Under the pieces are notes generated by a model. It searched no databases and had not been told where the DNA came from. It worked only from the letters and a program-made list of their open reading frames with translations. The position numbers and the translations under genes were made by a program. From the NCBI RefSeq assembly GCF_003991565.1, contig NZ_CP032819.1, forward strand, positions 2,728,001 to 2,792,000: a DNA stretch of 64,000 bases, written 5' to 3'. This stretch comes from Butyricimonas faecalis. GTDB taxonomy: Bacteria; Bacteroidota; Bacteroidia; Bacteroidales; Marinifilaceae. This document shows positions 27,401-60,708 of the stretch, piece by piece (position 1 is the stretch's first letter; every line of letters begins with the position of its first letter).

Positions 27401-28047
27401 ACCTCTTCCATCTCATTAACCGCCTCTTTCATCACCACGTTAATCATAGCCTGACCGCTATATTTTACTTCAACTGTCTGCATTCCTACAAAAGAGAATA
27501 CAAGTACCAACTTATCTGAGTTTGTCGTTGCAATCTCAAATTTTCCTTCAATATCAGTAGCAACTCCAACCTGCGTACCTTTTATCAAAACAGTTACCCC
27601 TGGCATAAGACCACCTCCCTCATCCTTCACAATTCCTTTTATCGTGTACTTTTTCAGCTGATTTAAAGAATCGGTCACACTCTCTTTTAAGGGAAGAATT
27701 AAGATATAATCTTTCATCAACTTATAGGTCATTCCACTTCCCTCTAAGATTTTTGCCAGAAACAATTCCATCTCAACATCTTTAAAATTAGCAATGATTT
27801 CTTGAGAGGTACTAAAGTTATTATCACTATAAATCACGATTTTATTTGTTTGGCGTTGAAATTCTGTTAACGCCTTTTTAATTGTCGTGTTTCCCAACTT
27901 CATTGTAATTCTTTGTTGAGAAAAACCATTTCCCAATGTCGTAATCACGAGAAATACACACATAAACAATGTCAATTTCATAATCATACAAATTTTCCAC
28001 CACCTGTCTTTCCCAGACACAGGTTTGTGCTCTTGACTTTTTTTCAT
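24421..28047 (-). CDS. SusC/RagA-family TonB-dependent transporter with STN domain (locus 1)
   Basis: A 1208-residue outer-membrane transporter. After a signal anchor (about 20-42) come an STN domain (about 50-115, TTIKKALTEFQRQTNKIVIY) that senses the FecR anti-sigma, a CarboxypepD_reg-like domain (about 130-210, GIVKDEGGGLMPGVTVLIKG), the plug (about 220-345, with DPLWVVDGII and LKDASATAVYGSRASNGVI) and a 22-strand beta-barrel ending in NYSFSINIGF. The STN domain places it under its own ECF sigma/FecR pair upstream. The ATG at 28047 overlaps, on the other strand, a TACATTTG promoter box for a predicted small RNA. The length is normal for the family. Confidence 0.94.
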   Translation of the reverse strand: MKKSQEHKPVSGKDRWWKICMIMKLTLFMCVFLVITTLGNGFSQQRITMKLGNTTIKKALTEFQRQTNKIVIYSDNNFSTSQEIIANFKDVEMELFLAKILEGSGMTYKLMKDYILILPLKESVTDSLNQLKKYTIKGIVKDEGGGLMPGVTVLIKGTQVGVATDIEGKFEIATTNSDKLVLVFSFVGMQTVEVKYSGQAMINVVMKEAVNEMEEVTVVSTGYQTVNRKDMVGSYTVIKADDVMIPSYSTIDQMLQGQVAGMMIMNTSSRVGASPKIKIRGTATLLGNQDPLWVVDGIIQDDPIPIDLMTNMADDLKNILGNQISWLNPNDIETITVLKDASATAVYGSRASNGVIVVTTKKGKTGRMSINYSGSFSYAPAPTYDRFNYMNSQERIRFAEEAYNYGARYGEEPLKQPYTYEGLMKMYIDGDINQDEYLGRKSALEMVNTDWLDLLTRVTLSQTHSLSISGGTDKVSYRVSLGYNNNHGQEVKNDGERLTSSISVGMQLPHRIKINVGMNGTISKNAGYASGVNPLSYALSTSRALPAFDEKGERLFYKRRSTYGFNNESETLSYNILNELDHSGSDVKNHRLSLNLILSWQLLDWLKYQFTGGYTYSNSNRQSFREEETYAVANEYRGYDFDSVEPDDPWFKAALLPFGGDVFTSDAIQQTYNIQNQLLISRTFAERHRLNMMLATEVRSTISEEHSNTLWGYVKSRGNKLIAPTAWSDFKPIGRKTQGGVGELFNRLYSNSAKIYGKTDNFFSLFATVAYSFSDRYVLNANFRHEASNRFGQDVNHRFDPEYSFGVSWRVSEEPFMQSQIGWLSQLNLKATYGIQGNVLQKIGPDLVLYQGGVAGVFNEYSSSIARIPNPNLSWERTRTWNFGVDLELFQKVSVVFEYYTRRSNAIIGQEIPYENGLSSMEINGGIIYNKGAEVTVNFVPVKTKDFALNVSVNSSKNWNTTGVGPSREPGLYEYLSGNAEKVMKKGYPVGAFWSYSFAGLNHENGTPQFNLLEVSEDKPYNGDPTSFLVYSGTIEPYFTGGVNLNARYKSFTLSTMFSLLLGGRKRLPSPYEDFRNKIFLPNETKNVSKDLVKRWMKPGDEKYTNIPALIRKDYMMEVPTGQENMIEMWENSNVMVVKSSFLRCCNLSLGWRMNPEISKKFGVSNLSLNASVSNLFVIASKRFNGFDPELGNSIMPRNYSFSINIGF

Positions 28048-28054
28048 ACATTTG
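28047..28054 (+). promoter_or_regulatory. Antisense-strand promoter box overlapping the susC start (locus 1)
   Basis: TACATTTG matches TAnnTTTG, and TTG at 28025-28027 lies 19 nt upstream, a good -33/-7 pair. It shares its first base with the susC start codon on the opposite strand and points away from susC towards fecR. The same CATACATTTG string occurs at all three susC starts. Confidence 0.6.
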
Positions 28055-28059
28055 TGTTA

Positions 28060-28139
28060 TTAAGTTTTACTTTATTCACCTCTTTCCAAAAGGAGATGAA
28101 TATCATCGGGTAATGTTGGTCGCATTATCCGATTTTTTA
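28060..28139 (+). ncRNA. Predicted small RNA in the fecR-susC gap, antisense to the fecR 3' end (locus 1)
   Basis: It starts downstream of the TACATTTG box and ends at a strong intrinsic terminator: ATCGGGTAATG (28105-28115) pairs with CATTATCCGAT (28123-28133, one G-U), followed by TTTTTT. It is about 80 nt and overlaps the last ~37 nt of fecR on the other strand. Cis-encoded RNAs near susC are known to repress SusCD loci in Bacteroides; a similar role here is inference. The transcription start is estimated, not observed. Confidence 0.6.
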
Positions 28140-29281
28140 TTTATTTTAATTACATCATTTGTTACTATAAAAGAAATATTCGTGACCTCCCCAATCATAT
28201 TCAAGATATCTTGTATATTATCGTATTTTCGAAATCCACCGGAATAAAGCACCTCTTTTAATACATCATCCTCAAATTCGTACTGGATATCGAACCAACG
28301 ACTTAACTTTTTCATCAACAAGTCCAAAGGTAAAGCATCAAATCGGAATATACCATTCGTCCAAGCAATATAACTTTCAGCATCAACCTCTCGTACCAAA
28401 GTTTCCCCTGTTCGCCGGTTAAATACAAACTGTTCGTTAGGTACCAACCGAGCATTAGAACCATCAACAGCAATCTTTACAGCTCCATTTACTAAAGTTA
28501 CTTCTACCCGTTCTTCATCCTCATAAGCAGACACGTCAAACAATGTCCCCAACACCCGAACATCCGCTTCATTTGCATGTACAATAAACGGTTTCAATGA
28601 ATCTTTTGCAACCTCAAAACAAGCACCTCCAGATAAGAAAACTTCCCGACTTTTTCCATTAAAACTAACTGGGAAGCGTAATCTTGATCCAGAATTTATA
28701 ACCACCAGACTTCCATCTACCAATCGCAAACGATACTCCCCGCCTTTAGGTACGATCAATTCATTATATACTTGTTCTTCCTGAGATTTTTCCAAACCTT
28801 CATTCCGGTACTCCAAATAAGCAGAATCAGAACAAATAATCGCACCTTTTTCCTCTATCATGCTCATTTTCGCTACACTCAATTCCTTCGTCTCTCCCGT
28901 CGAAAGCACAAGCGTCGCCTGCCGGGGTTGCCACTTCGGCAGGGAAGCAACAGGAACAATTTCATCTTTCGAAGTAAAGAGCCATATCAATCCAATCACA
29001 CATATTAAAGAAGCTGCAACAGAAGCACTTCTAACAATCCAACGTATCCTTCGTCTATTTCTCCGCCGCCCTTGAATTTGTTCCCAAGCGACCTGTTTCT
29101 TTATCACTACTCGGGAATTAGCCCATTTTCCGCTATACCACAAAGAGCAAAATTTCCGGTATGTTTCCCTATTCTCCCCATTCTCCTCTAACCATGCTTC
29201 AAGTTTTTCCTGACCTAAGACGTCTAATTTAGACGCTAAGTCTTCCAAAATTAATTCATGTATATCTTCCGGTAACTTCAT
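28103..29281 (-). CDS. FecR-family anti-sigma factor (locus 1)
   Basis: 392 residues. The N-terminal cytoplasmic anti-sigma region (about 1-80, LILEDLASKLDVLGQEKLEA) is followed by one transmembrane helix (about 86-104) and a periplasmic FecR domain (about 175-275: VPKGGEYRLRLVDGSLVVIN, FIVHANEADVRVLGTLFDVS). The DUF4974-type C-terminus (FRFDALPLDLLMKKLSRWF) contacts the STN domain of SusC. It relays ligand binding by SusC to the ECF sigma encoded just upstream (standard trans-envelope signalling). The terminator of the predicted small RNA overlaps its 3' end. Confidence 0.93.
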   Translation of the reverse strand: MKLPEDIHELILEDLASKLDVLGQEKLEAWLEENGENRETYRKFCSLWYSGKWANSRVVIKKQVAWEQIQGRRRNRRRIRWIVRSASVAASLICVIGLIWLFTSKDEIVPVASLPKWQPRQATLVLSTGETKELSVAKMSMIEEKGAIICSDSAYLEYRNEGLEKSQEEQVYNELIVPKGGEYRLRLVDGSLVVINSGSRLRFPVSFNGKSREVFLSGGACFEVAKDSLKPFIVHANEADVRVLGTLFDVSAYEDEERVEVTLVNGAVKIAVDGSNARLVPNEQFVFNRRTGETLVREVDAESYIAWTNGIFRFDALPLDLLMKKLSRWFDIQYEFEDDVLKEVLYSGGFRKYDNIQDILNMIGEVTNISFIVTNDVIKINKKSDNATNITR

Positions 29282-29359
29282 AATTACTTATTTTTACCAG
29301 TAAGACCTAAAAAAACAAAAAACGGGTAGGGTAAAATCGATTTTTTTGAAAAAATAATT

Positions 29360-29935
29360 CTAATAATTAGAAAACTTTCGAAGAAAATAAAATAAGACTT
29401 CTGGTCCCATTGAAGCCAAACGTTCCCGTAAACGTTTTGTCCCCTCTTTTAAAGCAAACTTCACAGTGTTTATAGAAATTTTCAATTCCTCTGCAGCTTC
29501 TTTATATTTCAAACCCCGTAACATCACACGTTCCACTACTTGCCGGGTTCTTTCTGGTAGTAATTCTACCTCTTTCATTACAATATCCATTCGTTCCTCG
29601 TCAATATCCTCTACCACGTCTACAAAGATATCTATCACTCCCAATTCTTGAGAATCGCGTAATACATCTTTTTTCTGAAGAAAAGAAATTGCCCGATTCC
29701 TTACCGCAGAATAAAGATAAGAACCAAGAGCTCCTTCAGCCACCTTTAACAAATAATCATCCTCCCACAATTTTACAAAAAAATCCTGCACCAGATCCTC
29801 TGCTGCAGAGCTATCCTTCAAAAATTCATCAGCAAATAGCACTAAAGGACGATAGTAACGATCAAACAAATGTTGAATACCGATAGTCTTATCCTTTCGC
29901 ATGAAAGCTAAAATATCCTGATCTGAAGAATACAT
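29360..29935 (-). CDS. ECF sigma factor, SusCD-associated (locus 1)
   Basis: ~191 residues. Region 2 (about 20-90) includes DRYYRPLVLFADEFLKD, DLVQDFFVKLWED and YLYSAVRNRAISFLQ; region 4 (about 120-180) includes LPERTRQVVERVMLRGLKYK and the helix-turn-helix EEL-KISINTVKFALKEG. I choose ATG 29935; the longer frame begins with TTG 29953, which overlaps a promoter-like box. It activates its own SusCD operon when released by FecR. It is paralogous to the sigma factors at 42121 and 61960. Confidence 0.92.
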   Translation of the reverse strand: MYSSDQDILAFMRKDKTIGIQHLFDRYYRPLVLFADEFLKDSSAAEDLVQDFFVKLWEDDYLLKVAEGALGSYLYSAVRNRAISFLQKKDVLRDSQELGVIDIFVDVVEDIDEERMDIVMKEVELLPERTRQVVERVMLRGLKYKEAAEELKISINTVKFALKEGTKRLRERLASMGPEVLFYFLRKFSNY

Positions 29936-29950
29936 ACTAACACTTTTGTA

Positions 29951-29958
29951 CAAAAATA
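29951..29958 (-). promoter_or_regulatory. TAnnTTTG-type box upstream of the locus 1 sigma gene
   Basis: TATTTTTG on the minus strand, ~16 nt upstream of ATG 29935. The leader would be very short. The same box lies upstream of the locus 2 sigma gene. Confidence 0.35.
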
Positions 29959-30033
29959 TTAATTCTCTCTCTCATTATAATACAATTTCAACTGAAATTC
30001 ACTTTATAATCAACGAGGACAGAAACACCTCTA

Positions 30034-30067
30034 ATTAAAAAAATGCCGGACTTGTTTGTCTCGGCAT
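30034..30067 (-). terminator. Intrinsic terminator of the tonB-like gene
   Basis: Read on the minus strand, ATGCCGAGAC (30067-30058) pairs with GTCCGGCAT (30051-30043) across a 6-nt loop and is followed by TTTTTTT. This is a strong textbook terminator 30 bp beyond the stop. Confidence 0.85.
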
Positions 30068-30096
30068 CCTTTATCAAGCATTACAACAATATGTTA

Positions 30097-30972: not shown

Positions 30973-31101
30973 ATCATGTATATTTATCAAATAGTTATCG
31001 TATCCTCTTACAAAAACAGAGCATAAAGCTACAATTAATATTAGAATTTCGAATATTTAATCCTGCTTTTTCTTGTCATTGATTGACAGGAATACTGAAG
31101 A

Positions 31102-31124: not shown

Positions 31125-31141
31125 AAGTCCTCAAAACCCAT

Positions 31142-31158: not shown

Positions 31159-31241
31159 TAAGCATAGGTGAATGCAGGTTCACAAAGAGCCTGGATCCAA
31201 TAAAATGATAATGTTGAACTTAAAGATAGGAGACTAAAATT

Positions 31242-32086: not shown

Positions 32087-34720
32087 TTATCCTTTTTTCA
32101 AGGAATCAATTATCAATAAAATCGAGCGGTAATGTATCTTATCTGCAGCATTTGCCGAAAGAATTTTAGCTTTTATCAAACGTTCGATTTTTTCCAACAT
32201 ATCTGCATAATAAGCACCGGATTCATCGATCTGGCTAGTTTTGATTTCTGACTGCCAACCATAATCTCCCTTATCTCCAAACTGTTTATATCTTGATAAC
32301 CACGAAGCGACATACCCTTGTCCTCGTTCTTCTTCCAAAGCACGCAGTGCAGGTAAAAATTCTTCAACATACCCCATGGGATCTAAACCGTAAAGAGCTA
32401 ATTCATCCACGGAGGGTGCATAAGCTAAGATTTGATCCTGAAGAGACTTGCCACTTTTCTTACCTACAATCTTACCTACAGAATTTACCGCATTTTGCAC
32501 CAACATTCTCTGTAATAATTTATCACCATCCGTCAAATGACGACCTTGAATTGTAGGCCCCCAAATTCCGGTATATAAATCATTATAATAATCTTTTAGT
32601 GTATAAGGTCGCATACTAACATGTGAAGACAGGAGTACTCCATTATTCAATTCCAAAAGTTTTTTCCCAATAATACCTTTTAAAACAATAGATTTACTTA
32701 ATGCCAAAGGAAGTCGACGAGTCAATTCATGTTGATCCAACCAATCACTATTACGAAGTTGTTCGATCACCCATAATAAAGATTTCTGTTGAATCTCCCG
32801 GGGCACAGATTGCCAACGTTCACCCGAAGTTCCATCTTTCACTTCTGTTAAATAAATACCACCCACGTTTACCAAAGCATTTAATAAATAACGAGTATAT
32901 TGAGTGCAAAGTTCAACATAGAGTTCTTCACGGCGAGTCATTGCTTCATCGTCTTTTATCCATTCGTCGAAATGTGCTAATATATATTGCAAATTTTTAA
33001 TTCCATAATCTCCAGCCTTACATGCATCGTCTCCAAGATCTTCTTCAAGAGCACTCGGATCATAACGAGAAAAAACTTGTTGTTTCCCGTAACGATACAT
33101 GGGATCTCCAACTTTCTCATCTACCCAACTTTCTAATATTTTGGCTTCTTCCTTCACGGATTTATTTCCCGGAATCGGAGAATATAACCATTTTATGGCA
33201 TAATCATCATACACTCCCATATCAGGAGGAGACAGACGAACTCCTTTATCCTCGGGTTGAGCAACATAATTAAAACGGGCATAGTCCATGATAGAAGGAG
33301 TGGTACCATATTTTTGAGTAAATGTTGCAGAACGCAAAGAGTCTACAGGGATGGCACTGGATGCTGCCATATTATGCATTAACCCCAAAGTATGACCTAT
33401 CTCGTGAGCAAAAACATAGGTCAAAGATTCATCTATAACCTCCTGCGGCATTTTTTTAGCACGTACTCTTGGATCAAGCTGCGAGGTTTGGATGAAGCGC
33501 CAGCTATTAATCAATTTAATCACGTCATTATAAACAAGCACCGTTGCATTGATAATTTCCCCCGTACGAGGATCAACCCAAGAAGGACCCATGGCATTCT
33601 CCACGGCAATAGGCACATAGCGAATACAGGAATATTTCAAGTTATCCGGATCAAAATTCGGATCATCTTTGGGAAAATCCAAAGCTTTCATCACGTTTTT
33701 GAATCCAATTTTTTCAAAAGCCTTGTTCCAAATCAACACAGATTGTTTCAAAGGAGCTTTCCAAGATTCGGGGAAGGCATCATCAATATACCACACAATA
33801 GGCTTCACCGGCTCCACGAGTTCACCACGTTCCCAAGCATGCATATCTTTTGGCTCAAGACGCCAACGATTAGCCAACGTGTAATTATAGATGCCATCTT
33901 TTTCCATTGTAATGTTCTGTTTGGCGGTAAGGAAGATCCCCACCCGGGTATCCGCGATACGCGGTTTCATTTGTTCTTCAGGTAATAAAAGAATGGTACG
34001 ATTCACTTTTGTTGTTAATTCATTTTTCTGTACCTCGCTTCCAAAAAAGGACAAGGTATAATCGTAAGTCATATAGGATTCTATTGTAATATTATCCTCA
34101 AAAGCTTTAATCTTCCCTAGCGATGCAAAATTGGGTCTCAATCTTGAACTCACCGTCAATATACTATATCTTTCTTCTACAGGTTTCAAAGCGGGCTCAT
34201 CACCAATAAACATTTCCGTCATATCAATAACAACAGACGTAGAATCATTACTATAAGCCTCAATAACATACTTTTTATTAAATGGATTCATGTAGTTACG
34301 TTGTAATGCCAATTTCAATTCAACATCACATTCAACTCTAGAATTCACAGACTCCAATATCATAGAACTGTCCATCTTGACAAATCTGACATGCATCGGA
34401 TCATTAATCTTATGTCCCACAGTAGCTAATCTGGAATTGCTAGATTCAGCCGTGGTAGAGGCGATTAACAAATCTCTTCCACAATACTTCAAGGGAATTT
34501 CAACATAAAGTTTACCCCCTATTTTGTGTAAAGTCATAAAGCCTCCTCTCGCTGTTTCCCGACCGGATTTTTTCATTAACTTGTCATAATCCGTTTCTTT
34601 AGCGATTGAAGATCTTTGGACCTCTTTTTTCTTGTCTTTTTGTTTATCAGCCGCAGAAATTATGTTCGTAAAAGAAGTTACGAACATAACTGCTGCAAAT
34701 AATACAATCCATTTTTTCAT
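32087..34720 (-). CDS. Zinc-dependent metalloprotease, metzincin type with DUF5117/DUF5118-like domains
   Basis: An 877-residue exported protein (signal peptide about 1-23, ends NIISA). The zinc site is HEIGHTLGLMH (439-449), the full metzincin HExxHxxGxxH, with the Met-turn SIMDY (476-480). The N-terminal ~300 residues (KIGGKLYVEIPLKYCGRDLL, then ILLLPEEQMKPRIADTRVGI) match the DUF5118/DUF5117 region of large Bacteroidota metalloproteases; a helical C-terminal region follows. All catalytic residues are present, so it should be an active periplasmic or surface protease. It is the last gene of locus 2, 26 bp after the degenerate metallopeptidase-like lipoprotein, and probably supplies the proteolysis of that locus. 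Confidence 0.93.
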   Translation of the reverse strand: MKKWIVLFAAVMFVTSFTNIISAADKQKDKKKEVQRSSIAKETDYDKLMKKSGRETARGGFMTLHKIGGKLYVEIPLKYCGRDLLIASTTAESSNSRLATVGHKINDPMHVRFVKMDSSMILESVNSRVECDVELKLALQRNYMNPFNKKYVIEAYSNDSTSVVIDMTEMFIGDEPALKPVEERYSILTVSSRLRPNFASLGKIKAFEDNITIESYMTYDYTLSFFGSEVQKNELTTKVNRTILLLPEEQMKPRIADTRVGIFLTAKQNITMEKDGIYNYTLANRWRLEPKDMHAWERGELVEPVKPIVWYIDDAFPESWKAPLKQSVLIWNKAFEKIGFKNVMKALDFPKDDPNFDPDNLKYSCIRYVPIAVENAMGPSWVDPRTGEIINATVLVYNDVIKLINSWRFIQTSQLDPRVRAKKMPQEVIDESLTYVFAHEIGHTLGLMHNMAASSAIPVDSLRSATFTQKYGTTPSIMDYARFNYVAQPEDKGVRLSPPDMGVYDDYAIKWLYSPIPGNKSVKEEAKILESWVDEKVGDPMYRYGKQQVFSRYDPSALEEDLGDDACKAGDYGIKNLQYILAHFDEWIKDDEAMTRREELYVELCTQYTRYLLNALVNVGGIYLTEVKDGTSGERWQSVPREIQQKSLLWVIEQLRNSDWLDQHELTRRLPLALSKSIVLKGIIGKKLLELNNGVLLSSHVSMRPYTLKDYYNDLYTGIWGPTIQGRHLTDGDKLLQRMLVQNAVNSVGKIVGKKSGKSLQDQILAYAPSVDELALYGLDPMGYVEEFLPALRALEEERGQGYVASWLSRYKQFGDKGDYGWQSEIKTSQIDESGAYYADMLEKIERLIKAKILSANAADKIHYRSILLIIDSLKKG

Positions 34721-34746
34721 ACACGCAATTTTTTTACATACAACAA

Positions 34747-35634
34747 TTATTCATAAATAGTATTTCCGATTTTAACGATATCTATACCATATTCCGTTTT
34801 TAACCAGCTAACCAATATATCATATTTTTGCTTGACCAAAGGATATTGCAAATCATCTTCCCACTCTTTAGCCGTCCGGAAAACAAGAGAAGCAAGATAA
34901 GCATTCAAATCATTCGATTCTGTCATATTACCATCAATACTCCACTCATAATCCATCGTTGGATTTAAAACAAATCCTGCATTCCGAGCCTCCTCAGTAT
35001 CATCTACATTATTTGAATAGTCACTAATTGCAATAAATTCATCTGGAGCAACAATGGTTGCTGAAGCCACAAGTGATTCTAAGAATACACTCTGCAAATT
35101 AGATTTATACACTCTCTTTTCTTCTGCAGACATATCGGCTACACTTTTATTCACGTTGCTAATAGCTATTTGATTATCCAGGTAACGAGCATATACATCT
35201 TTCCAACTTAAAATATAATCCCATATGCCCCAATCAAATTTACGAACTTGTAATTGCACGGTTTCAGTCAAAAATATTCGTATAGGCATTGCATGGGCTA
35301 GAAATTCTTGATCATAGAAATCAAACCAAGTAAGTTGAAGTAAATCAAGCAAGTTTTTCACTTTACCCGGTTCTATAGGATCAAACCGAAATACATCATC
35401 ACCTAAAGAATTCGAAATTTGCGTCCAATTGAAATCTTTTTCCGAAAATTCATACAAGAAATAACTACCATAAGTCTCGTATAATTTCAAGATTCGTTGA
35501 TCTGCCATAGCGTCACCTCCTTGAGGAAGTACATAATCAGCTCCAGGCACCTGAATATTTCCAATTTGGGTATCTTTCGCGCAGCCACTTAAGAATAAGA
35601 TTGCCAACAAACTTATATATATTCTCATTTTCAT
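34747..35634 (-). CDS. SusD-linked lipoprotein resembling the putative zinc metallopeptidase family, zinc motif absent (locus 2)
   Basis: 295 residues, lipobox FLSGC (Cys at about 18). QGGDAMADQRILKLYETYGS followed by FLYEFSEKDFNWTQ is close to the start of the putative zinc-binding metallopeptidases found next to SusD (PF15890). The HExxH expected in the second half is not there; the region reads ASATIVAPDEFIAISDYSNN. The end (YPLVKQKYDILVSWLKTEYG IDIVKIGN) parallels the end of the locus 1 protein (IIKYYDFVVNYLKKNYKWDI TRIAVL). The two are probably diverged non-catalytic members with a ligand-binding role. The gene starts 24 bp after susD. Confidence 0.62.
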   Translation of the reverse strand: MKMRIYISLLAILFLSGCAKDTQIGNIQVPGADYVLPQGGDAMADQRILKLYETYGSYFLYEFSEKDFNWTQISNSLGDDVFRFDPIEPGKVKNLLDLLQLTWFDFYDQEFLAHAMPIRIFLTETVQLQVRKFDWGIWDYILSWKDVYARYLDNQIAISNVNKSVADMSAEEKRVYKSNLQSVFLESLVASATIVAPDEFIAISDYSNNVDDTEEARNAGFVLNPTMDYEWSIDGNMTESNDLNAYLASLVFRTAKEWEDDLQYPLVKQKYDILVSWLKTEYGIDIVKIGNTIYE

Positions 35635-37125: not shown

Positions 37126-40100
37126 TTAAAACATTACTTGCAATGACAAGGATGTAACTCGTCTTGCAGGCCAATTGCCTGTTTCCGGATCCAAACCATC
37201 CCATTTACTATCGGAAACCCACATGAATGGATTTGTCATACTTGCTTTAATGACAAAACGTTGAGCGGCAATACGAGATAACCATTTTTGATTAAATTCA
37301 TAAGAAAGTGATAATGAACGACAGCGAATAAAATCCGTGTTTGCAACACGCAAATCTGAATTATTATACATATCATAAAGTTTCCTTTCTGTACTAGCAA
37401 CCGAAGCTGTTGCCGGAAGATCGATATAAGCCTCAGATGTCGGAATAGAAGGTATATTCGTTTTATCCCCAACTTTCCTCCAACGGAGAGCTAAATCCCG
37501 AGATACATTTTGTTCCGGAGTTGGGATCCCATAATTATTGTCCGTGTCATACAACTTCGGTAAACGGGCATGGCCACCCCATTGTACGTTAAACAACGCG
37601 AATAATGACCAGTTTCTATATTTAAACATCATGTTTAAACCTCCAGAAAAATCAGGTGTGAATTTCCCGGATTTCACCAAATAATTTAACGGACTTGCTC
37701 CATTTAAAACATCCATATAGGCAAATTCCGGTGTCCCATTTTCATCGTTCAGTCCATTATATTTAAAAGAATAAAAGGTTGAAAACGCCTCTCCATCCAC
37801 CACGGCACTCCCTTCCAAATAATCATTCAATGTATTGATACGTTGATTTTTATTAACCTTATTCTTGGTCTCGCTGGTATTCAAGGATAACTGCCAAGTG
37901 AAATCTTTGGTGCGCACAGGGATCACATTAATCACGAAGTCATAACCGGTGTTAGTCATTTCTCCACCATCCACCACTGCATTCTTCATGCCATTTTCCC
38001 GTGGAATGTTACGAGAAGAAAGCACATCACTAATCTTCTTAAAATAATTTACCGTAAAATTCAAACGTCCATCCAACAAGGCAGCATCAACACCAAAATT
38101 ATAAGTTTTTGTTTTTTCCCACCCGAGATCAGGATAAGGTAATGAACTAATATTTAACAAATAAGCGTTATAATATTCATTAACACCTCCATCTTTTGCA
38201 ATCAAGTAGGGAGAAACACTTTCGACGGCATTTCCCTGAAATCCATAAGATGCAATTAAATCCAAATTGTTCAACCACCACAAGTTTTTCGCAAAACGTT
38301 CGGCAGCAACTCGCCACTTAACCCCCACAGACCACGTTGGAGCAAAGCGTTTATTCTTATCCTGTCCAAAACGATTGGAAGCATCCAGGCGAGCACTCGC
38401 GTTCAACACGTAACGACCGTCATAAGTATACACGGCAGAAATATACTCACTAAGCTTATTATCAATCTTATTCAGCACCATCGCTTCTCCTTGGGCTAGA
38501 TCATTATCTAAAAGATCACCTTCCCAGGCTAAATCAGAATAGGTCAGAGGCAATTTAATAAAGGTTTCACCTCGATCTTTCAAATACCCGTAACGCTTAC
38601 TTGTTGTTCCTCTTGTCTTCGAGGAATTGGTCTCAACACCTAGTTGTAAAGTTAATCGATGAATATCCTCAAACATATGGTCATACACCAAAGCATTTCG
38701 AACAGTAACCGTAGAAACATCTGTCAATCCCGTTTCCAATAAACCACCAAAAGGCAAACGAGTATAAGCAAACTCCGGAGCCGAGCTTTCATAAACCCCA
38801 TAATCATACCCACGCAAAGAGGCAACATAAAAAGAACGTTCTGTTGCATACTTTTTCACGTCTGCAGATGAAGACGAGTAAGAAACTAACCCTTGATAAT
38901 CCAATCCCGGCAAGATATTCCATTTGACATCTAACGTGGTGCCCCAAGTTTTCGTGTTATTTTCACTTCCTGTATTATCCAACTCATTTTGGATATTGTA
39001 TAAATAACTCGTTTTATTATTGATGACCGTGCTTGACTCATTGGCCCATTTCTCATGATAATACAAAGAACCATCCTCACTATACATTGGAATTACCCGA
39101 CTCGTATTATAAGCATAGCTAAAGGGATCCACATCATAAGCAAAGCCTTTCACTTTACGCCACGTCCCTTTCAATAATAAATTTACAATAAGCTTATTAT
39201 TCATCAAATTAACGGTCGTGTTGGAAGTTGCCGTCAATAACGTAACCTTATTCCCAGTCGCCTCTCCCGTTTCATCTGTATACCCAAGAGAAGTTCTGTT
39301 TTGAATCTTTTCAGATCCCCCAGCAAGACTCAAACTATGTTTATGACTAAATGAATTTTGGAAAAGCAAGTCAAACCAATCCGTGTTCGTAGTAGCCATC
39401 TTTTCATACTGTTGGTCAAACTCCTTTTTACTAATCTCTTTGTTCAAATAAGATTGCAGCAAACCAGCAAACCCGATAGATAACACTTTTGAAGGATAAC
39501 TTACCCTATCTTCATACATTTCCTGAGAAAATTCCATCATTTCCTGAGAATTCATCTGGTTATACAAACCATAACGAGGCCTTTGGCCAATGGAGAAATC
39601 CCCGCTATATGCGACAGAAACTTTACCAACATTCGCTTTTTTAGTCGTAATAACAATCACACCATTTGCGGCCTCTGAACCATAAATTGCCGTCGCAGAT
39701 GCATCTTTTAAAACGGTGATCGACTCTATATCATTGGGATTCAACCAAGAAATAGCATTACCAGCCAACTGAGAGATATCATCTGCATCCACTGAAAATT
39801 TTGTGTTATCTTCCGAATTGAATGGTTGTGGATCTCTTTGTATTACCCCATCAACGACCCAAACCGGTTCTTGACTACCCAACAATGAAGACACCCCACG
39901 AACCCGAATTTTGGGGGAGGCACCAACCATTCCCGTTCCCTGTTGAACAAGCATACCCGGCACCACTCCTTGCAACATCTGATCAATTGAAGAAACTCCC
40001 GCCATCATAATATCTTCGGCTTTCATCGTAGTTGCAGCACCCGTGTAATTACCTTTTGACATATTCCCATAACCGGTAACCACTACATCTTCCAAAACTT

Positions 40101-40716
40101 CTATATCATCCTTCATAACCACGTTTACAGAATCCTGCCCGGTGTATTTCACTTCCTGCGTATGCATCCCGACAAAAGAAAATACCAAGAGTATATTATC
40201 AACCTTTGGAATTGTCAATACATAACGTCCATCAGGACCAGTTGTTGTTCCCAACTTCAAATCTTTTACCATTACTGTCACTCCAGGTAAAGCCATGTTT
40301 TTTTCATCAACGACTTTCCCGGTAACCGATACGGTTTTCTTCTTTTCATCTTTCATGATAACTTTCAGTATCACGAATTCATCCATAAACTCATAACTCA
40401 AGTTAGTTCCAGCTAAAACCTTGTCCAGCACATCCTTCAGCTCCATCTGTACAAATCCGGCTTGTATTTTCTTGTCTTTATTCAATTCATTGTTACTATA
40501 CACAACCGTCAAGCCCGTTTGTTTTTGAATCTGAGTAAATAATTCTTGATAAGTAACAAACTGATGTTCAATTGTCACTTTCGATTGAGCACCTACGTTT
40601 GCAAAAGTCAGGTGCATTCCGATAAACAATAAAATTACACTTAACCTCATAATTTTAAAAAGTTTTCGCAGCTGATTATTTCTCTCGAAAAGCCACTTTG
40701 TACCCTTTTTCTTCAT
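37126..40716 (-). CDS. SusC/RagA-family TonB-dependent transporter with STN domain (locus 2)
   Basis: A 1196-residue outer-membrane transporter with the same domain order as the locus 1 SusC: signal (about 20-44), STN (about 52-120, YQELFTQIQKQTGLTVVYSN), CarboxypepD_reg-like (about 130-205, GKVVDEKNMALPGVTVMVKD), plug (about 210-340, QEPVWVVDGVIQRDPQP, LKDASATAIYGSEAANGVI) and barrel ending VTSLSLQVMF. Its plug is clearly similar to that of locus 1 (VGASPKIRVRGVSSLLGSQE), supporting a shared origin. It signals through the FecR/ECF pair upstream. An opposite-strand promoter box overlaps its start codon. Confidence 0.94.
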   Translation of the reverse strand: MKKKGTKWLFERNNQLRKLFKIMRLSVILLFIGMHLTFANVGAQSKVTIEHQFVTYQELFTQIQKQTGLTVVYSNNELNKDKKIQAGFVQMELKDVLDKVLAGTNLSYEFMDEFVILKVIMKDEKKKTVSVTGKVVDEKNMALPGVTVMVKDLKLGTTTGPDGRYVLTIPKVDNILLVFSFVGMHTQEVKYTGQDSVNVVMKDDIEVLEDVVVTGYGNMSKGNYTGAATTMKAEDIMMAGVSSIDQMLQGVVPGMLVQQGTGMVGASPKIRVRGVSSLLGSQEPVWVVDGVIQRDPQPFNSEDNTKFSVDADDISQLAGNAISWLNPNDIESITVLKDASATAIYGSEAANGVIVITTKKANVGKVSVAYSGDFSIGQRPRYGLYNQMNSQEMMEFSQEMYEDRVSYPSKVLSIGFAGLLQSYLNKEISKKEFDQQYEKMATTNTDWFDLLFQNSFSHKHSLSLAGGSEKIQNRTSLGYTDETGEATGNKVTLLTATSNTTVNLMNNKLIVNLLLKGTWRKVKGFAYDVDPFSYAYNTSRVIPMYSEDGSLYYHEKWANESSTVINNKTSYLYNIQNELDNTGSENNTKTWGTTLDVKWNILPGLDYQGLVSYSSSSADVKKYATERSFYVASLRGYDYGVYESSAPEFAYTRLPFGGLLETGLTDVSTVTVRNALVYDHMFEDIHRLTLQLGVETNSSKTRGTTSKRYGYLKDRGETFIKLPLTYSDLAWEGDLLDNDLAQGEAMVLNKIDNKLSEYISAVYTYDGRYVLNASARLDASNRFGQDKNKRFAPTWSVGVKWRVAAERFAKNLWWLNNLDLIASYGFQGNAVESVSPYLIAKDGGVNEYYNAYLLNISSLPYPDLGWEKTKTYNFGVDAALLDGRLNFTVNYFKKISDVLSSRNIPRENGMKNAVVDGGEMTNTGYDFVINVIPVRTKDFTWQLSLNTSETKNKVNKNQRINTLNDYLEGSAVVDGEAFSTFYSFKYNGLNDENGTPEFAYMDVLNGASPLNYLVKSGKFTPDFSGGLNMMFKYRNWSLFALFNVQWGGHARLPKLYDTDNNYGIPTPEQNVSRDLALRWRKVGDKTNIPSIPTSEAYIDLPATASVASTERKLYDMYNNSDLRVANTDFIRCRSLSLSYEFNQKWLSRIAAQRFVIKASMTNPFMWVSDSKWDGLDPETGNWPARRVTSLSLQVMF

Positions 40717-40723
40717 ACATTTG
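40716..40723 (+). promoter_or_regulatory. Antisense-strand promoter box overlapping the susC start (locus 2)
   Basis: TACATTTG, in the same position and direction as in loci 1 and 3. A TTG at 40698-40700 is 15 nt upstream, shorter than optimal. Confidence 0.5.
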
Positions 40724-40728: not shown

Positions 40729-40796
40729 TTAGTTAATTATAAAAGTTAATTAAACTTCCTCCCGGGTAGTGCGTCACCACTATTCGGGATTTTTTA
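40729..40796 (+). ncRNA. Predicted small RNA in the fecR-susC gap (locus 2)
   Basis: About 67 nt from the estimated start to a strong intrinsic terminator: a 12-bp stem 40760-40771/40778-40789 (two G-U pairs, loop 40772-40777), followed by TTTTTT. The two wobble pairs form only in the plus-strand RNA and become A-C mismatches on the minus strand, which supports the plus-strand direction. It ends before the fecR stop at 40816. Confidence 0.6.
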
Positions 40797-40815: not shown

Positions 40816-41997
40816 CTATTCTATTTTTCGAACCAAAATTTTTCCATCTTTTTCTTGAAAAGCGACTTTTGTCGTTTTCGCAATCATCCCCAACACGTAA
40901 TCCAATGTCCTATATTTCGTTACCGCACCAGAAAAACGAAACTCTTTCACAGTCTCATCCTCGAACATAAATTGCACACCATACCAACGAGCCAGTTTCA
41001 CCGTCAATCTATCCAAAGGCATATCCTCAAAATTGAACCGTCCTGTTTTCCAATCTATGATCGATTCGACATTCCCCTTTCGAAGAGTTGCCTCTCTATC
41101 TCCTTTGTCCCAAGTTGCGATCTCCCCTGGTACCAATACATATTCATTATTTGGTAAATTGAACCCAACCTTACCGCGTAATAAAGCAACTTCAACTTGT
41201 TGATCTTCCTGATAAGCCGATACATTAAATGCAGTTCCCAACACCTGTACTTTAGCCTCCCCAACTTGAACATAAAATGGCTTTTGCGGATCAGCAATCA
41301 CTTCAAAATAAGCCTCTCCTGTCAACTTCACCTCTCGTACATTTTTGTGAAAACGGTCTGGGAATTCTAATTTTGAATCTGAATTAATCCAAACTTTCGT
41401 ACCATCACTTAATATAACTTGATATTCACCTTTCTCCGGCACGACGATTGAACTATACCGACAAACTTCCTCTTCTGTAACAACACCACGATCTTCAAAT
41501 CGGACACTCCCCGTCGAATCTTGAATAATCTCAATCCCTGAAACATCTGCTACTTGACAGGTTTTGCCATCATTTAAAGCTATTTTTTCTCCCGCACTTG
41601 TTACTAAAATCGCTTTTGGAGAGCCAGATTCAACTTGTAGCACATTGGAAACCAATATTGTCTCCATCTCTGACCCCGATCTATTCTGCCATATGAATGC
41701 CACTCCAATCGCAACAATAATCATCGAGGCAATCCGAGCCCCCCATATATACAACTTTTTCCTTCGACATTCTATAAAAAGCGTAATCTTATCCCACGTT
41801 CTCTGTTGCACATCATCCAACTCTTTCCATTGCCCAACAGCAGATACTCGCATTTTGATTCGCAACATTTCCCGAAATTGTTTCTCATGTTCAGGAGCTG
41901 CCTCCAACCACCGGAGTAACTCGATTCTATCTTTCTCAGAAAGAACTCCACGTACATATTGATTGACCCATTCGTCTATTCTATCTCCTGCCTCCAT
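40816..41997 (-). CDS. FecR-family anti-sigma factor (locus 2)
   Basis: ~393 residues from ATG 41997 (MEAGDRIDEWVNQYVRG). The frame is open to 42063, but the extra residues (MKISIFDSPVFIFCCLYEKQ) are unlike FecR starts. N-terminal anti-sigma region, transmembrane helix at about 85-103 (IASMIIVAIGVAFIW), FecR domain (VPEKGEYQVILSDGTKVWIN, FYVQVGEAKVQVLGTAFNVS) and DUF4974-type C-terminus (FNFEDMPLDRLTVKLARWYG). It holds and activates the ECF sigma encoded upstream in response to SusC occupancy. Confidence 0.92.
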   Translation of the reverse strand: MEAGDRIDEWVNQYVRGVLSEKDRIELLRWLEAAPEHEKQFREMLRIKMRVSAVGQWKELDDVQQRTWDKITLFIECRRKKLYIWGARIASMIIVAIGVAFIWQNRSGSEMETILVSNVLQVESGSPKAILVTSAGEKIALNDGKTCQVADVSGIEIIQDSTGSVRFEDRGVVTEEEVCRYSSIVVPEKGEYQVILSDGTKVWINSDSKLEFPDRFHKNVREVKLTGEAYFEVIADPQKPFYVQVGEAKVQVLGTAFNVSAYQEDQQVEVALLRGKVGFNLPNNEYVLVPGEIATWDKGDREATLRKGNVESIIDWKTGRFNFEDMPLDRLTVKLARWYGVQFMFEDETVKEFRFSGAVTKYRTLDYVLGMIAKTTKVAFQEKDGKILVRKIE

Positions 41998-42120
41998 AAC
42001 TTTTTGTTTTTCGTATAGACAACAAAAAATAAAAACGGGTGAATCAAAAATGGAAATTTTCAAATAATATTATCTCATTTATTCCCGAACACAGTATAAA
42101 AACACAGCATAATAGTAGAA

Positions 42121-42666
42121 TTATCTAAATAAAAATACAAAAAGAAATAAATCTCCACGTCCAGAAAAATGTTCCCGTAAATGCTTCATACCATTTTTCA
42201 GCAAAGTCTTCACTGTATTTATAGATATCCCCAACTGATCTGCCACCTCTTGATATTTTAAACCTTGGAAAAAAACACCTTGGATAATTTCTCGTGTTTG
42301 TTCCGGCATATTTGAAATCTCTGTCTCAATCTCTTGAATTAACTCGTCATTCCACGTCATCATCTCTTCTTCCGCAACATCTCCATACAACAAATCCAAA
42401 CGATCCTTTAATACGTCTTTCTTTTTCAAGCGATTCAAACAATTATTTTTAACAGAGCGGAATAAATAGGTCTTTGTTACTTCACTTTTTACCTTGTGAT
42501 AAGTATCATCTTTCCAAAAATTGACAAAAACTTCTTGTATCACATCTTCCGCTTCCTCTTCTGAAGTTAGTAAACTAATGGCATACAAAAACATAGATTT
42601 CGAATAGTCTCTATAGATTTCTTCGAATCCAATTCTTTTATTCGTTATACTCCTTAGTTTCGTCAT
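42121..42666 (-). CDS. ECF sigma factor, SusCD-associated (locus 2)
   Basis: 181 residues. Region 2: IYRDYSKSMFLYAISLL, EDVIQEVFVNFWKD and TYLFRSVKNNCLNRL. Region 4: MPEQTREIIQGVFFQGLKYQ EVADQLGISINTVKTLLKNG. The order sigma-FecR-SusC-SusD on one strand is the standard trans-envelope signalling unit. A TATTTTTG box lies upstream at 42691-42698. Confidence 0.93.
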   Translation of the reverse strand: MTKLRSITNKRIGFEEIYRDYSKSMFLYAISLLTSEEEAEDVIQEVFVNFWKDDTYHKVKSEVTKTYLFRSVKNNCLNRLKKKDVLKDRLDLLYGDVAEEEMMTWNDELIQEIETEISNMPEQTREIIQGVFFQGLKYQEVADQLGISINTVKTLLKNGMKHLREHFSGRGDLFLFVFLFR

Positions 42667-54855: not shown

Positions 54856-54873
54856 AACTCATCAAATTACACG

Positions 54874-57148: not shown

Positions 57149-57164
57149 ATCGCTAATTTTTTCA

Positions 57165-60100
57165 TTATAGTGAAACTTTGATAGAGAACGTCACCGTACG
57201 AGCGAAAGGATAACTCGTTCCTCTCTCCTGCTTCACACTGGAAAGATGCCAAATGTCGTTCATACCGAAACTGAAACGTAACATACTCAAATTCAATTTA
57301 TTTGTAATACTAGACGGTAAATCATAGCCCAACTCCAAAGAGTTCCACGACAACACATTATAATCCTGCACAAAACGAGAAGTGGGCTTTGTTTGCTCGA
57401 CAACATTTCGCCCGACAACCAAACTTTTATACTTTGCCTTGTCGCCCGGTTTTGTCCACCGACTGGTCAACACTCGCTCGTCCACATTATCCGTATACAC
57501 ATTCACATTTTCCACTTTATCCACCAAAGTTTGATTATAACGTTGCCCACCAGTTTCATACATAAAATTCGTAAACAAACTGAATTGTTTATAAACAATA
57601 TTAAAACCAAAAGTTCCTTGTGCTTTGGGCTCTGACGTGCCCAAGGCTACTTGATCCGAAGCAGCCCAAACTTTTGTCAATTGACCATTACGACTTACAA
57701 ATACTTCCTGACCATCAGCAGGATTAATACCTTGCGAACGCACGCCAAAAATAGAATTCAAAGAACCACCTTCCACATACTGCAAGAAAGGTTGTGATTG
57801 TAACTCCTTATCCGGATCATTAAAAGCCAATTGTTTCGAGAACATCTCTTGCACGCGTTCATTATAGGCACGCAAACTCTCTGAAATTTTCTCTATCCGG
57901 TTTTTGTTATGTGCCAAATTAAAGTTAAAAATAACAGACCAATCCTTCGTCTGATAAGCAGACACTCGTACATCAAACTCGTACCCTTTATTCGAAACTT
58001 CCCCCACGTTATCTCGATAAGAAGTAAAACCGGTAGAAGTAGGGACTGTCACATCATTTACCAAATCGATGGTTCGTTTGTCGTAATAAGATCCCTTCAC
58101 ATACAACAAATCACCGAACAATGACAATTCTGCCCCGATATCAAATGTATTGGTCGTTTCCCAAGTCAAATTCTTATTACCCAAGGCCTTCAACCTAGTA
58201 CTCAATCCTGTTTTATACCATTCATCTGTTGCAATATCATATGTAGATCGAGCAGCATAAGCCGGAAAATTCGCTTTACCAATCTGCCCGTAAGAAGCAC
58301 GAAGTTTCAACTGATCAACAAATCCTAACGATTGGATAAAATTATATTTATGCAAGTTCACACCTAACCCAAATGACCAAAAAGGAGCAAAACGTTGATC
58401 AGATCCAAATGTCGAAGAACCATCCATACGAACAGAGGCGTCCAAAAGATAAATGTCTTTATACGAATAGTTCAATGAAAATAAGAATCCCACTAGACGT
58501 TTCGTACTTTCATTAAAGCGAGTCTTTTGATACATTTCTTTAGCATATTCTGGAGATGAAAGAGTTCCGGAGGGGAAACCAATATAGGTAGCGCCATTTG
58601 ATTTAGATTTATCCTCTTGCACAGAAATTCCTGTCAAAGCATTTATCATATGACCATTCAAAGCTTTATTGAATGACAACGTGGCATTCATATCCACACT
58701 AAAACCATCATTATTATCCAAATACAATGTACCCGAATTCACATTTTTCAAAGACAAAATATTCAAATTAGCCGACTGCTGGGATAATGGATCATAAAAA
58801 CGTTTAGTATTACCTATCGTTTTAGTCAAACTCAACTGACCTTTCAACAATAACCCGTCAATAATATTCCAATTGACTGACAAATTATTGATAAACTCTT
58901 CAGAGCTTCCCTTATTAAAATTATTTAAACTCGGTTCATACATCGGATTCACACGTCGACTATCAGAACCTCTCCCCCAATATTTCATCGTCGGATTATA
59001 AACACCATCCTCGTCCTTATACGTGTCATAAGGTAATTGCTTTGCAAAAGCAGCAAAATTTCCATAAGGAGATTCCTTCGTACGCACTCGTTGATAAGTC
59101 ACCGTATTTTTTACCAAAAATGTTTTATAATTATACGCTAAAGAAACACCTGCCCCCATACGATCACGCAAAGAGCCCTTCATCACACCATCTTGATTAG
59201 CATATTGCAATTCAATGCCAAAACGCACACTCTCACTACCTCCATCAATATACAAACTATGAGAATGATTAAACACGGTCTGTAACGGTTTTGCCAGCCA
59301 ATAAGTATCCACTCCTTTTACAACATTTGCCAATTTATTGCTATACTCTTTATCCAAAGTATATTTGTCCGTATAACCATCATTATTCTTGTCAAAATCA
59401 TAACATCCTGCCAAACGTTCCACTTCCAATTTTTCCTTGGCATTCAATAGATGATAGTCCGTCAAATCCGGAAATGTAATATCTCCCACAATACTGTAAT
59501 CAATGTTCAACTTTCCAGCTTTAGGAGGAATTGTGGTAATAATTACCACACCATTAGCTGCGCGTGATCCATAAAGAGCCGTTGCTGTAGCATCTTTTAA
59601 AATGGTGATTGACTCGATCCTATTTGGGTCCATATCATACAATTTACTCACACTCACCTCGAAACCATCCATAATAAATGTTGGAAGATTCGGATTATCC
59701 ACTAGATTCGATTTTGACAAAGCGTCACGATCTAACTGTTTCACTCCCAAACCGGATTCTCCACGAATATACACCTCGGGTAAAGCATTCGGGTCTGATC
59801 CCCAACGATTATTCTCCTTAATGCGGAAAGAAGGATCGAATGTTTGCAAAGCCTTAATGACATTCGTTTTCGACACTTTCAGCAAATCCTCCTTTTTCAC
59901 CGTAACAGCATTACCCGTAAAACTTGAATTACGAATATTCATAAATCCCGTCACCACCACATCTTCCAAAGCCTTAACATCCTCTTTCATCACAACATCA
60001 ATCGTATCCTTCCCGGCGTAAACAACTTCCTGAGTCAGCATCCCCACAAAAGAATAAACAAGTGTGAATTTTTGGGGAGCATTAGGGATTGTCAACGAGT

Positions 60101-60599
60101 ATTTACCATCATGCCCCGTCGCTGTTCCGATAGCAACCCCCTTCATCTGCACGGTCACACCGGGAAGAGGCTGTTTTTTCGCATCAGAAACTTTTCCCGT
60201 TATAACGATCTTCTTTACTTCCTTATCATCTTGGGCATCTCTAGGTCGTACGACGATCATATTGCCGTTAAAAACGTACGTCAAATCTGAATTTTTGAAA
60301 ACAGACATCAACACAGATTCCACGGTCTCATTATTCACGTCCAAAGAAATTTTCCCCAACTGCTTTACTTGTTCTATATTAAACAAGAAATAAAGCTTCG
60401 TCTGACGTTGAACCTCGTCGAACAATTTCTCCACACCCACGTTCTTCATTTTCAAGCTCACGCGTTCCTGTTGTGCCAAACTATTGGCTGACAACGAAAG
60501 CGTAAAGCAACAAGTGAGTAAAAAAAACAGTTTCATAATTACTAAAATTTTACGCCATGGTCTTTTAAAAAAAGAATGGCACAATCGTTTTTTTTCCAT
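57165..60599 (-). CDS. SusC/RagA-family TonB-dependent transporter with STN domain (locus 3)
   Basis: 1144 residues. Signal anchor (about 17-43), STN (about 50-118, NVGVEKLFDEVQRQTKLYFL), CarboxypepD_reg-like (about 130-205, GKVSDAKKQPLPGVTVQMKG), plug (about 210-345, NLPTFIMDGFEVSVSKLYDM, LKDATATALYGSRAANGVVI) and barrel ending FARTVTFSIKVSL. The plug carries an IMDGFEV variant in place of WVVDGII and is more distant from the other two SusCs. It is controlled by the FecR/ECF pair at 60702-62526. The mRNA segment at 60551-60557 is complementary to the loops of the predicted small RNA next door. Confidence 0.94.
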   Translation of the reverse strand: MEKKRLCHSFFKRPWRKILVIMKLFFLLTCCFTLSLSANSLAQQERVSLKMKNVGVEKLFDEVQRQTKLYFLFNIEQVKQLGKISLDVNNETVESVLMSVFKNSDLTYVFNGNMIVVRPRDAQDDKEVKKIVITGKVSDAKKQPLPGVTVQMKGVAIGTATGHDGKYSLTIPNAPQKFTLVYSFVGMLTQEVVYAGKDTIDVVMKEDVKALEDVVVTGFMNIRNSSFTGNAVTVKKEDLLKVSKTNVIKALQTFDPSFRIKENNRWGSDPNALPEVYIRGESGLGVKQLDRDALSKSNLVDNPNLPTFIMDGFEVSVSKLYDMDPNRIESITILKDATATALYGSRAANGVVIITTIPPKAGKLNIDYSIVGDITFPDLTDYHLLNAKEKLEVERLAGCYDFDKNNDGYTDKYTLDKEYSNKLANVVKGVDTYWLAKPLQTVFNHSHSLYIDGGSESVRFGIELQYANQDGVMKGSLRDRMGAGVSLAYNYKTFLVKNTVTYQRVRTKESPYGNFAAFAKQLPYDTYKDEDGVYNPTMKYWGRGSDSRRVNPMYEPSLNNFNKGSSEEFINNLSVNWNIIDGLLLKGQLSLTKTIGNTKRFYDPLSQQSANLNILSLKNVNSGTLYLDNNDGFSVDMNATLSFNKALNGHMINALTGISVQEDKSKSNGATYIGFPSGTLSSPEYAKEMYQKTRFNESTKRLVGFLFSLNYSYKDIYLLDASVRMDGSSTFGSDQRFAPFWSFGLGVNLHKYNFIQSLGFVDQLKLRASYGQIGKANFPAYAARSTYDIATDEWYKTGLSTRLKALGNKNLTWETTNTFDIGAELSLFGDLLYVKGSYYDKRTIDLVNDVTVPTSTGFTSYRDNVGEVSNKGYEFDVRVSAYQTKDWSVIFNFNLAHNKNRIEKISESLRAYNERVQEMFSKQLAFNDPDKELQSQPFLQYVEGGSLNSIFGVRSQGINPADGQEVFVSRNGQLTKVWAASDQVALGTSEPKAQGTFGFNIVYKQFSLFTNFMYETGGQRYNQTLVDKVENVNVYTDNVDERVLTSRWTKPGDKAKYKSLVVGRNVVEQTKPTSRFVQDYNVLSWNSLELGYDLPSSITNKLNLSMLRFSFGMNDIWHLSSVKQERGTSYPFARTVTFSIKVSL

Positions 60600-60606
60600 A
60601 CATTTG
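60599..60606 (+). promoter_or_regulatory. Antisense-strand promoter box overlapping the susC start (locus 3)
   Basis: TACATTTG at the same position and in the same direction as in loci 1 and 2. No -33 TTG at standard spacing (a T-run lies there). Confidence 0.5.
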
Positions 60607-60611
60607 TACTT

Positions 60612-60708
60612 AAAGTTATTAATACCTCAACAAGAAACTACGCCAAATAGTTTTTGTTGTCCTTAATTACAAACGGGAAGTACGCCAAATACTTTCCGTT
60701 TTTATTTT
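60612..60708 (+). ncRNA. Predicted small RNA in the fecR-susC gap with two matching stem-loops (locus 3)
   Basis: About 95 nt. Stem-loop 1 (60628-60640/60648-60659, one bulge) and the terminator stem-loop 2 (60671-60682/60690-60701, 12 bp with one G-U, then TTTTTATTTT) both present the same 7-nt loop CGCCAAA closed by a T-A/A-T pair. The loop sequence UACGCCA is complementary to UGGCGUA in the susC mRNA (60551-60557, about codon 15). The RNA ends at the fecR stop (60702). The direction is supported by the T-run being on the plus strand only. Confidence 0.62.

Follow-up and report, generated by a model that had tools for sequence, protein, structure and literature searches.

In a 64,000-nucleotide stretch of the Butyricimonas faecalis genome (contig NZ_CP032819.1, positions 2,728,001 to 2,792,000, called the window below), three genes of the susC/ragA family of TonB-linked outer-membrane receptors each lie downstream of a fecR-type anti-sigma gene, and each of the three fecR–susC gaps contains a predicted small RNA (sRNA) gene on the opposite strand. 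Most loci of this genome that have the sequence box described below very probably carry such an antisense sRNA gene of their own, composed of a -7 box of the sigma-ABfr type at the susC start and a dedicated terminator. We consider it probable that each locus encodes an antisense RNA of the DonS-like class, which would keep susC silent until the extracytoplasmic function (ECF) sigma factor of the locus is activated. The anatomy of the gene, its strand and the conservation of its RNA structure are supported by the sequence comparisons that follow; expression, repression of the neighbouring susC and the titration logic are what we infer, the repression by analogy with the published DonS-like class (PMC7366714, PMC10994844, PMC11697453).

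All three window susC genes begin inside the string CATACATTTG on the plus strand, with its CAT as the susC start codon on the minus strand, exactly where the original prediction had placed them (Table 1), and neither strand of the window holds a further copy. The three copies compare with 0.28 expected, and none of 100 shuffles reached three. Of the looser string CATANNTTTG the window contains 12 copies vs 3.87 expected, nine of them away from the three susC starts. The TAnnTTTG box and the susC start codon have exactly one base in common. When 29 window open reading frames (ORFs) with ATG starts were tested, CAAAnnT stood before the ATG at three, namely the three susC genes.

The complete genome (4.98 Mb) has 81 fecR domain matches, two of which are apparently pieces of one gene, and all 80 resulting fecR loci were analysed. 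The box CATAnnTTTG, which reads CAAAnnTATG on the sense strand, falls at or close to the start of the downstream ORF, defined as -150..+80 around the called start, at 65 of these 80 loci, and it touches the start codon at nearly all of them. A count that does not depend on start calls finds the box within -60..+500 of the fecR stop at 66 of the 80, with a downstream frame longer than 150 codons at 65. Control patterns with changed spacings or permuted letters gave 0-2 of 80, a control stretch within fecR gave one match and a stretch farther downstream gave none. The 65 include L067, where the box opens a four-codon frame. At L043, which has two boxes, the second was the one scored, although the long frame belongs to the first. 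Two boxed loci fall outside the 65, namely L068 and, on the start-independent tally, L096. The SusC identity of the downstream ORFs was tested for some of the 65, not all. The middle dinucleotide of the box varies, nine of the 16 dinucleotides being seen and none with a final G. The string CATACATTTG itself has 36 copies in the genome vs two for its reversed control. Five of eight susC genes without an adjacent fecR (L360, L362, L363, L365 and L367) also have the box at their start, the eight coming from 56 scored among 136 susC candidates, so that the feature tracks susC and not fecR. The idea that every fecR–susC gap carries the feature is too strong, given 65 of 80 loci. As a separate observation, the fecR at G000:C1:314211-314493 is apparently split across two frames and the boxed start of L068 opens a frame that closes after 73 codons; both are possibly decayed loci.

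Terminators were sought as a strong hairpin with a T-run within 140 nt of the box, using dinucleotide shuffles as background. Such a terminator is present on the antisense strand at 54 of the 65 boxed loci and on the sense strand at six, vs a shuffle mean of 0.65; of the 15 loci outside the box criterion only L032, whose box has one base changed, has an antisense terminator. The proposed pairing of box and terminator thus exceeds that in shuffled gaps, and the proposed restriction of the hairpin and T-run to the plus strand holds as a general tendency, the sense-strand cases being its exceptions. Predicted RNAs at the 54 loci have a median length of 79 nt and a range of 63-118 nt (at least 78 nt in 29), roughly in line with the 60-95 nt first given for the spacers. 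At 44 of the 54 loci the terminator hairpin ends no more than 11 nt from the last base of the fecR stop codon, so that usually the whole gap is taken up by the RNA gene. The AT-rich strings AGTTAA, TTAATA, TAAACA and AACATT recur in the RNAs above shuffles and, by eye, lie near the 5' end (e.g. 60612-60627). A small peptide encoded in the RNA was considered and rejected, closed ORFs being shorter than in shuffles.

The strand of the RNA is addressed independently by its stems. For each boxed locus the best hairpin was selected by Watson-Crick pairs alone, a strand-symmetric choice that uses neither T-run nor energy. In the antisense reading, the 127 hairpins obtained from 159 loci examined contain 94 G-U, 10 A-C and 22 other non-Watson-Crick stem pairs, counts that include related loci and are hence not independent, so that a binomial value is not to be taken literally; the corresponding numbers for this genome alone are 42, 3 and 8. 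Because an A-C pair on the antisense strand is a G-U pair on the sense strand, the excess of G-U indicates that the fold is kept for an RNA of the antisense strand. The pattern offers good, if indirect, evidence for the production of an antisense RNA at boxed loci. A series of 89 loci (L141-L229) was picked by pattern, with the box present by construction; 81 of these have an upstream ORF and entered the strand test, and 57 passed the terminator cut. The region of the gap-3 RNA of the window is 92-93% identical in two congeners, and the family of this RNA (12 sequences, alignment A1) has 22 cells changed on both sides vs 7.0 in shuffles and a covariation score of 0.308 vs 0.159, within a set of five covariation measures applied to a structure that was predicted from the same alignment. 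The sense leaders of the three window susC genes also form hairpins, which are less distinct from shuffles (z -3.20, -3.17 and -2.50) than those of the predicted RNAs (z -4.98, -4.65 and -4.24).

The arrangement recurs in other genomes, with examples in congeners, in G400 and G509, and in Bacteroides sp. GM023. The string TTTTTTCATANNTTTG has 68 matches in the B. faecalis genome vs one for its reversed control, and 55, 65 and 73 vs 0 in three congeners. Corresponding counts are 29 vs 0 in G400 (another genus of the same family), 2 vs 1 in G499 (the same genus as G400), 33 vs 0 in G509 (a genome of another family) and 15 vs 2 in G393. In a sample of the order, 196 of 247 genomes have at least one match, and apart from the genomes just named most have 0-6 and a few have more; in a sample of the class, 131 of 295 genomes have a match. 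Bacteroides sp. GM023, for which 50 of its 51 fecR loci were covered, has the box at the start at 13 of the 50, with longer gaps (135-268 nt) and a strong terminator at 10 of the 13. Given this shared arrangement, the RNAs of B. faecalis and those of Bacteroides very likely form one class.

The loop comparison covered five sets of RNAs with strong terminators, 121 in all (own genome 54, congeners 17, G400 15, Bacteroides 10 and G509 25), with the weak terminators at 11 of 65 own-genome loci and three of 13 Bacteroides loci left out of the counts. The terminator loop region shares at least six letters with the upstream sequence in 19 of the 121 RNAs (permuted mean 4.26; maximum of 2000 permutations, 15). 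Such repeats exceed permutation in the own genome (10 of 54 vs 2.04) and in congeners (4 of 17 vs 0.30), are not clearly above it in G400 (2 of 15) or Bacteroides (2 of 10), and have no excess in G509 (1 of 25); a hairpin-based count gave 7 of 42 vs 1.15 permuted. Examples are TACGCCAAATA, present twice in window gap 3, repeats of seven letters at L042 and nine at L074, and CGCCAA, found twice each at the Bacteroides loci L327 and L330. Three members of the gap-3 family have CGCCAA in both loops and four have CTCCAAC in both, and the two loops of the other members differ. CGCCAA is also common to several loci (L033, L038, L041, L078, L079 and L090). Two generalisations were rejected: twin loops as a rule, seen in 19 of 121 RNAs, and CGCCAA as the family loop, seen in 8 of 121.

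Terminator loops of 7 nt occur in 37 of the 121 RNAs, with T or G at position 2 in 35, C at position 4 in 28 and A at position 6 in 34; the resulting consensus [CG][TG]NCNAA is derived from the very loops it describes. Read on the susC leader this pattern becomes UUNGN.., which fits the U-turn pattern YUNR described for many antisense systems (PMC4485353, PMC6562991). In the sense reading, YUNR is present in 37 of 78 loops of at least 5 nt vs 19.2 in shuffles (maximum of 500: 31), distributed as 0 of 10 loops of 5 nt, 6 of 21 of 6 nt, 25 of 37 of 7 nt and 3 of 5 of 8 nt. In the reading of the RNA itself the same 78 loops give no enrichment (12 vs 11.3). The YUNR share does not exceed that of real terminators: 21 of 50 control terminator loops from the same genome, generally longer ones, contain the pattern (shuffles 15.6, maximum 23). 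The YUNR signal is therefore suggestive only.

If each boxed locus encodes a DonS-like repressor RNA, the locus would operate as follows. A housekeeping promoter of the sigma-ABfr type, with its -7 box touching the susC start codon, would fire away from susC. The RNA, of ~60-120 nt, would cross the susC leader on the opposite strand, fold into one or two hairpins and stop at the intrinsic terminator, usually at the fecR stop codon. While FecR sequesters the ECF sigma factor, the RNA would pair with the leader of stray susC transcripts by the start codon and silence them, and activation of the sigma factor would produce susC mRNA in amounts that overcome the RNA. As the original prediction also supposed, transcription through the susC start and initiation of the sRNA might exclude each other.

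Several results weigh against this model. The -33 element of the antisense promoter is not enriched (TTTG at 6 of 65 loci vs 4.0 in shuffles), and TTG and its variants in the -30..-12 region of boxed loci are likewise not above shuffles. The susC promoter on the sense strand was not located by a k-mer search, which gave mainly strings resembling fecR codons. At 11 of the 65 boxed loci the finder returned no strong antisense terminator. Half of the chromosomal CATACATTTG sites (17 of 34) lie inside the 80 fecR regions and half (17 of 34) elsewhere, so the string is not exclusive to fecR loci. Two of the measures used on alignment A1 have no clear excess: pairs changed on both sides (6 vs 4.3, equalled in 48 of 500 shuffles) and further pair types (12 vs 13.0). 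To these is added the relatedness of loci in the G-U counts. A G-U pair of the sRNA is an A-C pair on the sense strand and makes a worse stem there, so the susC leader need not show the same hairpins. In the literature, pairs of antisense RNA and polysaccharide utilization locus (PUL) with a positive correlation are also reported (PMC10994844), and a warning is given that random promoters may give rise to some antisense RNAs (PMC7366714).

Among competing explanations, interference fares best: antisense transcription towards fecR, or a polymerase at the start codon, might by itself block susC transcription and leave the RNA product irrelevant. Two regularities would suit such a mechanism: at most of the 65 boxed loci the box has a fixed position at the susC start, and the transcribed piece usually spans the whole gap to the fecR stop. 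Interference alone, however, would require neither the conservation of hairpins at the RNA level, with G-U pairs accepted on the sRNA strand, nor loop letters that recur within a locus above permutation, and we judge it unlikely. Rather less credence is given to RNAs that act mainly in trans, targeting susC mRNAs from other loci or working via an RNA-binding protein, after the manner of the FopS RNAs of B. thetaiotaomicron, which pair with susC translation-initiation regions (PMC11697453). The CGCCAA loop common to the six loci listed above is what trans action would lead one to expect; most terminator loops, however, differ among loci, and the complementarity of each RNA to its own leader is complete. 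Furthermore, no Rfam family, FopS included, reached its gathering score in the window (the presence of a FopS model in the Rfam copy was not checked), and 20 of the 80 fecR loci searched up to E 1 gave only the unrelated Six3os1_3 (E 0.06), below its gathering score. Finally, it is very improbable that CAAAnnTATG is a susC translation-start signal and the hairpin has some other role, since the string, although it adjoins the susC start at almost every boxed locus and although translation efficiency in Bacteroidota is correlated with adenine at positions ahead of the start codon (PMC7366714), is absent at 26 of the 29 tested window starts, co-occurs with an antisense terminator (54 of 65 loci with the box, 1 of 15 without) and varies at its two middle bases as TAnnTTTG does, with none of the nine dinucleotides ending in G.

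The repressor-RNA model can be extended to the mode of target recognition. It is conceivable, and we put it forward tentatively as something more doubtful than not, that RNAs of the DonS-like class recognise their targets by loop-loop contacts, as plasmid copy-control RNAs do, with the loops as the key of each locus and with cross-regulation among loci of the same key. In this scheme, RNA loops of the form [CG][TG]NCNAA would pair with U-turn loops (UUNGN..) of the susC leader, and a loop repeated on two hairpins would offer two chances of docking; repression through this pairing is our conjecture. If it holds, loci such as the CGCCAA group, which includes window gap 3, would cross-regulate, and the dozens of receptors in one cell would form a loop-coded exclusion network. 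The anatomy offers a concrete test of target recognition by the class in the form of a loop swap.

The features of the three window loci are collected in Table 1. By profile matches, each of the three loci has a SusC/RagA receptor, an anti-sigma factor of the FecR type and an ECF sigma factor; the first locus also has a match to SusD. Ten neighbour genes tested in the window encode proteases, thioredoxin-like, ABC-transport and other proteins, with glycan enzymes at 0 of 10. The genes after the first susC/susD pair (17814-21961) encode thioredoxin-like, aspartyl protease and subtilase proteins, which suggests uptake of peptide, not sugar. Beside the second susC (32087-35634) lie a Met-zincin (DUF4953/DUF5117) protein and a zinc-peptidase match below cut-off. 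The string CATAGCTTTG at 62564-62573 on the minus strand, directly upstream of the ECF sigma gene, is likely a housekeeping promoter of the sigma–fecR pair. Several Bacteroides sp. GM023 loci in the series L310-L351 have a TATGA-like element between the fecR stop and the antisense terminator, which might be a sigma-dependent susC promoter, the signal being too weak to claim.

Table 1. Coordinates of genes and predicted elements at the three window loci (gap 1 = L099, gap 2 = L035, gap 3 = L078); RNA ends are inferred from the box and the T-run
Feature	Locus or gap	Position	Strand	Remarks
susC/ragA-family TonB-linked outer-membrane protein gene	1	24421..28047	-	1208 amino acids (aa); TIGR04056, E 4.5e-198
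fecR-type anti-sigma gene	1	28103..29281	-	PF04773 above cut-off
ECF sigma factor gene	1	29360..29953	-	TIGR02937 above cut-off
CATACATTTG	1	28045..28054	+	susC start codon CAT, minus strand 28047-28045; predicted -7 box TACATTTG 28047-28054
Predicted antisense RNA	1	28060..28140	+	81 nt; fold -24.1 kcal/mol, z -4.98
First hairpin	1	28073..28102	+	
Terminator hairpin	1	28105-28133	+	T-run to 28139; overlaps fecR 3' end
susC/ragA-family gene	2	37126..40716	-	1196 aa; TIGR04056, E 1.4e-192
fecR-type anti-sigma gene	2	40816..42063	-	PF04773 above cut-off
ECF sigma factor gene	2	42121..42666	-	TIGR02985 above cut-off
CATACATTTG	2	40714..40723	+	susC start codon, minus strand at 40716; predicted -7 box 40716-40723
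Predicted antisense RNA	2	40729..40796	+	68 nt; fold -22.5 kcal/mol, z -4.65
Terminator hairpin	2	40760-40789	+	T-run to 40795
susC/ragA-family gene	3	57165..60599	-	1144 aa; TIGR04056, E 1.5e-202
fecR-type anti-sigma gene	3	60702..61874	-	PF04773 above cut-off
ECF sigma factor gene	3	61960..62526	-	TIGR02985, E 2.3e-47
CATACATTTG	3	60597..60606	+	susC start codon, minus strand at 60599; predicted -7 box 60599-60606
Predicted antisense RNA	3	60612..60708	+	97 nt; fold -22.7 kcal/mol, z -4.24
First hairpin	3	60628..60659	+	loop CGCCAAA inside TACGCCAAATA 60639-60649; covariation in alignment A1
Terminator hairpin	3	60671..60701	+	same loop TACGCCAAATA 60681-60691; T-run overlaps fecR stop codon

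Three groups of known RNAs invite comparison. Kissing-loop antisense RNAs of plasmid replication, namely the ColIb-P9 Inc RNA, the IncB/K RNAI and the R1 CopA RNA, resemble the present feature in a loop CGCCAA that faces UUGGCG in the target leader. CopA of R1 is a kissing-loop antisense RNA (PMC4485353). CGCCAA is the complement of the UUGGCG (5'-rUUGGCG-3') loop motif, which appears in the title of Asano 1998, on ColIb-P9, as given in the reference list of PMC10724649. The plasmid RNAs differ in that they serve plasmid copy control, whereas CGCCAA occurs here in 8 of 121 RNAs only and kissing is a conjecture; for pMV158, kissing is described as not critical (PMC4485353). A DNA similarity search against plasmids gave no match, and a literature search on kissing antisense RNAs at SusC in Bacteroides returned nothing on point, only work on vitamin B12.

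The FopS and GibS RNAs are likewise small RNAs with an intrinsic terminator, and the FopS RNAs act at susC translation starts, where they block susC translation (PMC11697453). They differ in acting in trans with a shared single-stranded seed, a group to which no Rfam match ties the RNAs described here.

The closest relatives are DonS of B. fragilis and the DonS-like RNAs of B. thetaiotaomicron, which are cis-antisense RNAs opposite susC (PMC7366714, PMC10994844), compared here as later papers describe them. The DonS-like RNAs are given as 78-128 nt long, divergent to susC homologues and lowering susC expression, and five of ten in B. thetaiotaomicron were detected by Northern blot (PMC7366714). 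For the same species 32 such antisense RNAs are annotated, and functional work on the class is asked for (PMC10994844); DonS is described as a repressor whose mechanism is called unknown (PMC11697453). The original prediction, in naming a class of cis-encoded repressor RNAs of Bacteroides SusCD loci, had the right class, and its proposal of a separate sRNA repressor for each locus survives as a predicted antisense sRNA gene at most loci rather than every one, with repression carried over from the published class. The feature shares with the DonS-like RNAs its position opposite the susC 5' region (at the three window loci and, going by box and downstream ORF, at 65 of 80 fecR loci) and a terminator of its own (at 54 of 65 boxed loci, judged from sequence). 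The differences lie in the number of boxed fecR loci, 65 in a single genome, in the shortness of their gaps, which the RNA gene usually occupies completely, in predicted lengths as low as 63 nt, and in the tested neighbours of the first two window loci, several of which are protease-like and not sugar enzymes. The usual end of the terminator at the fecR stop and the repeated loops are perhaps new features of the class. The anatomy, comprising the box, the terminator at the fecR stop, some repeated loops and strand-specific G-U pairs, gives a searchable sequence definition for other Bacteroidales genomes, and at the scale of ~65 loci in one genome many TonB-linked receptors may have their own off-switch.

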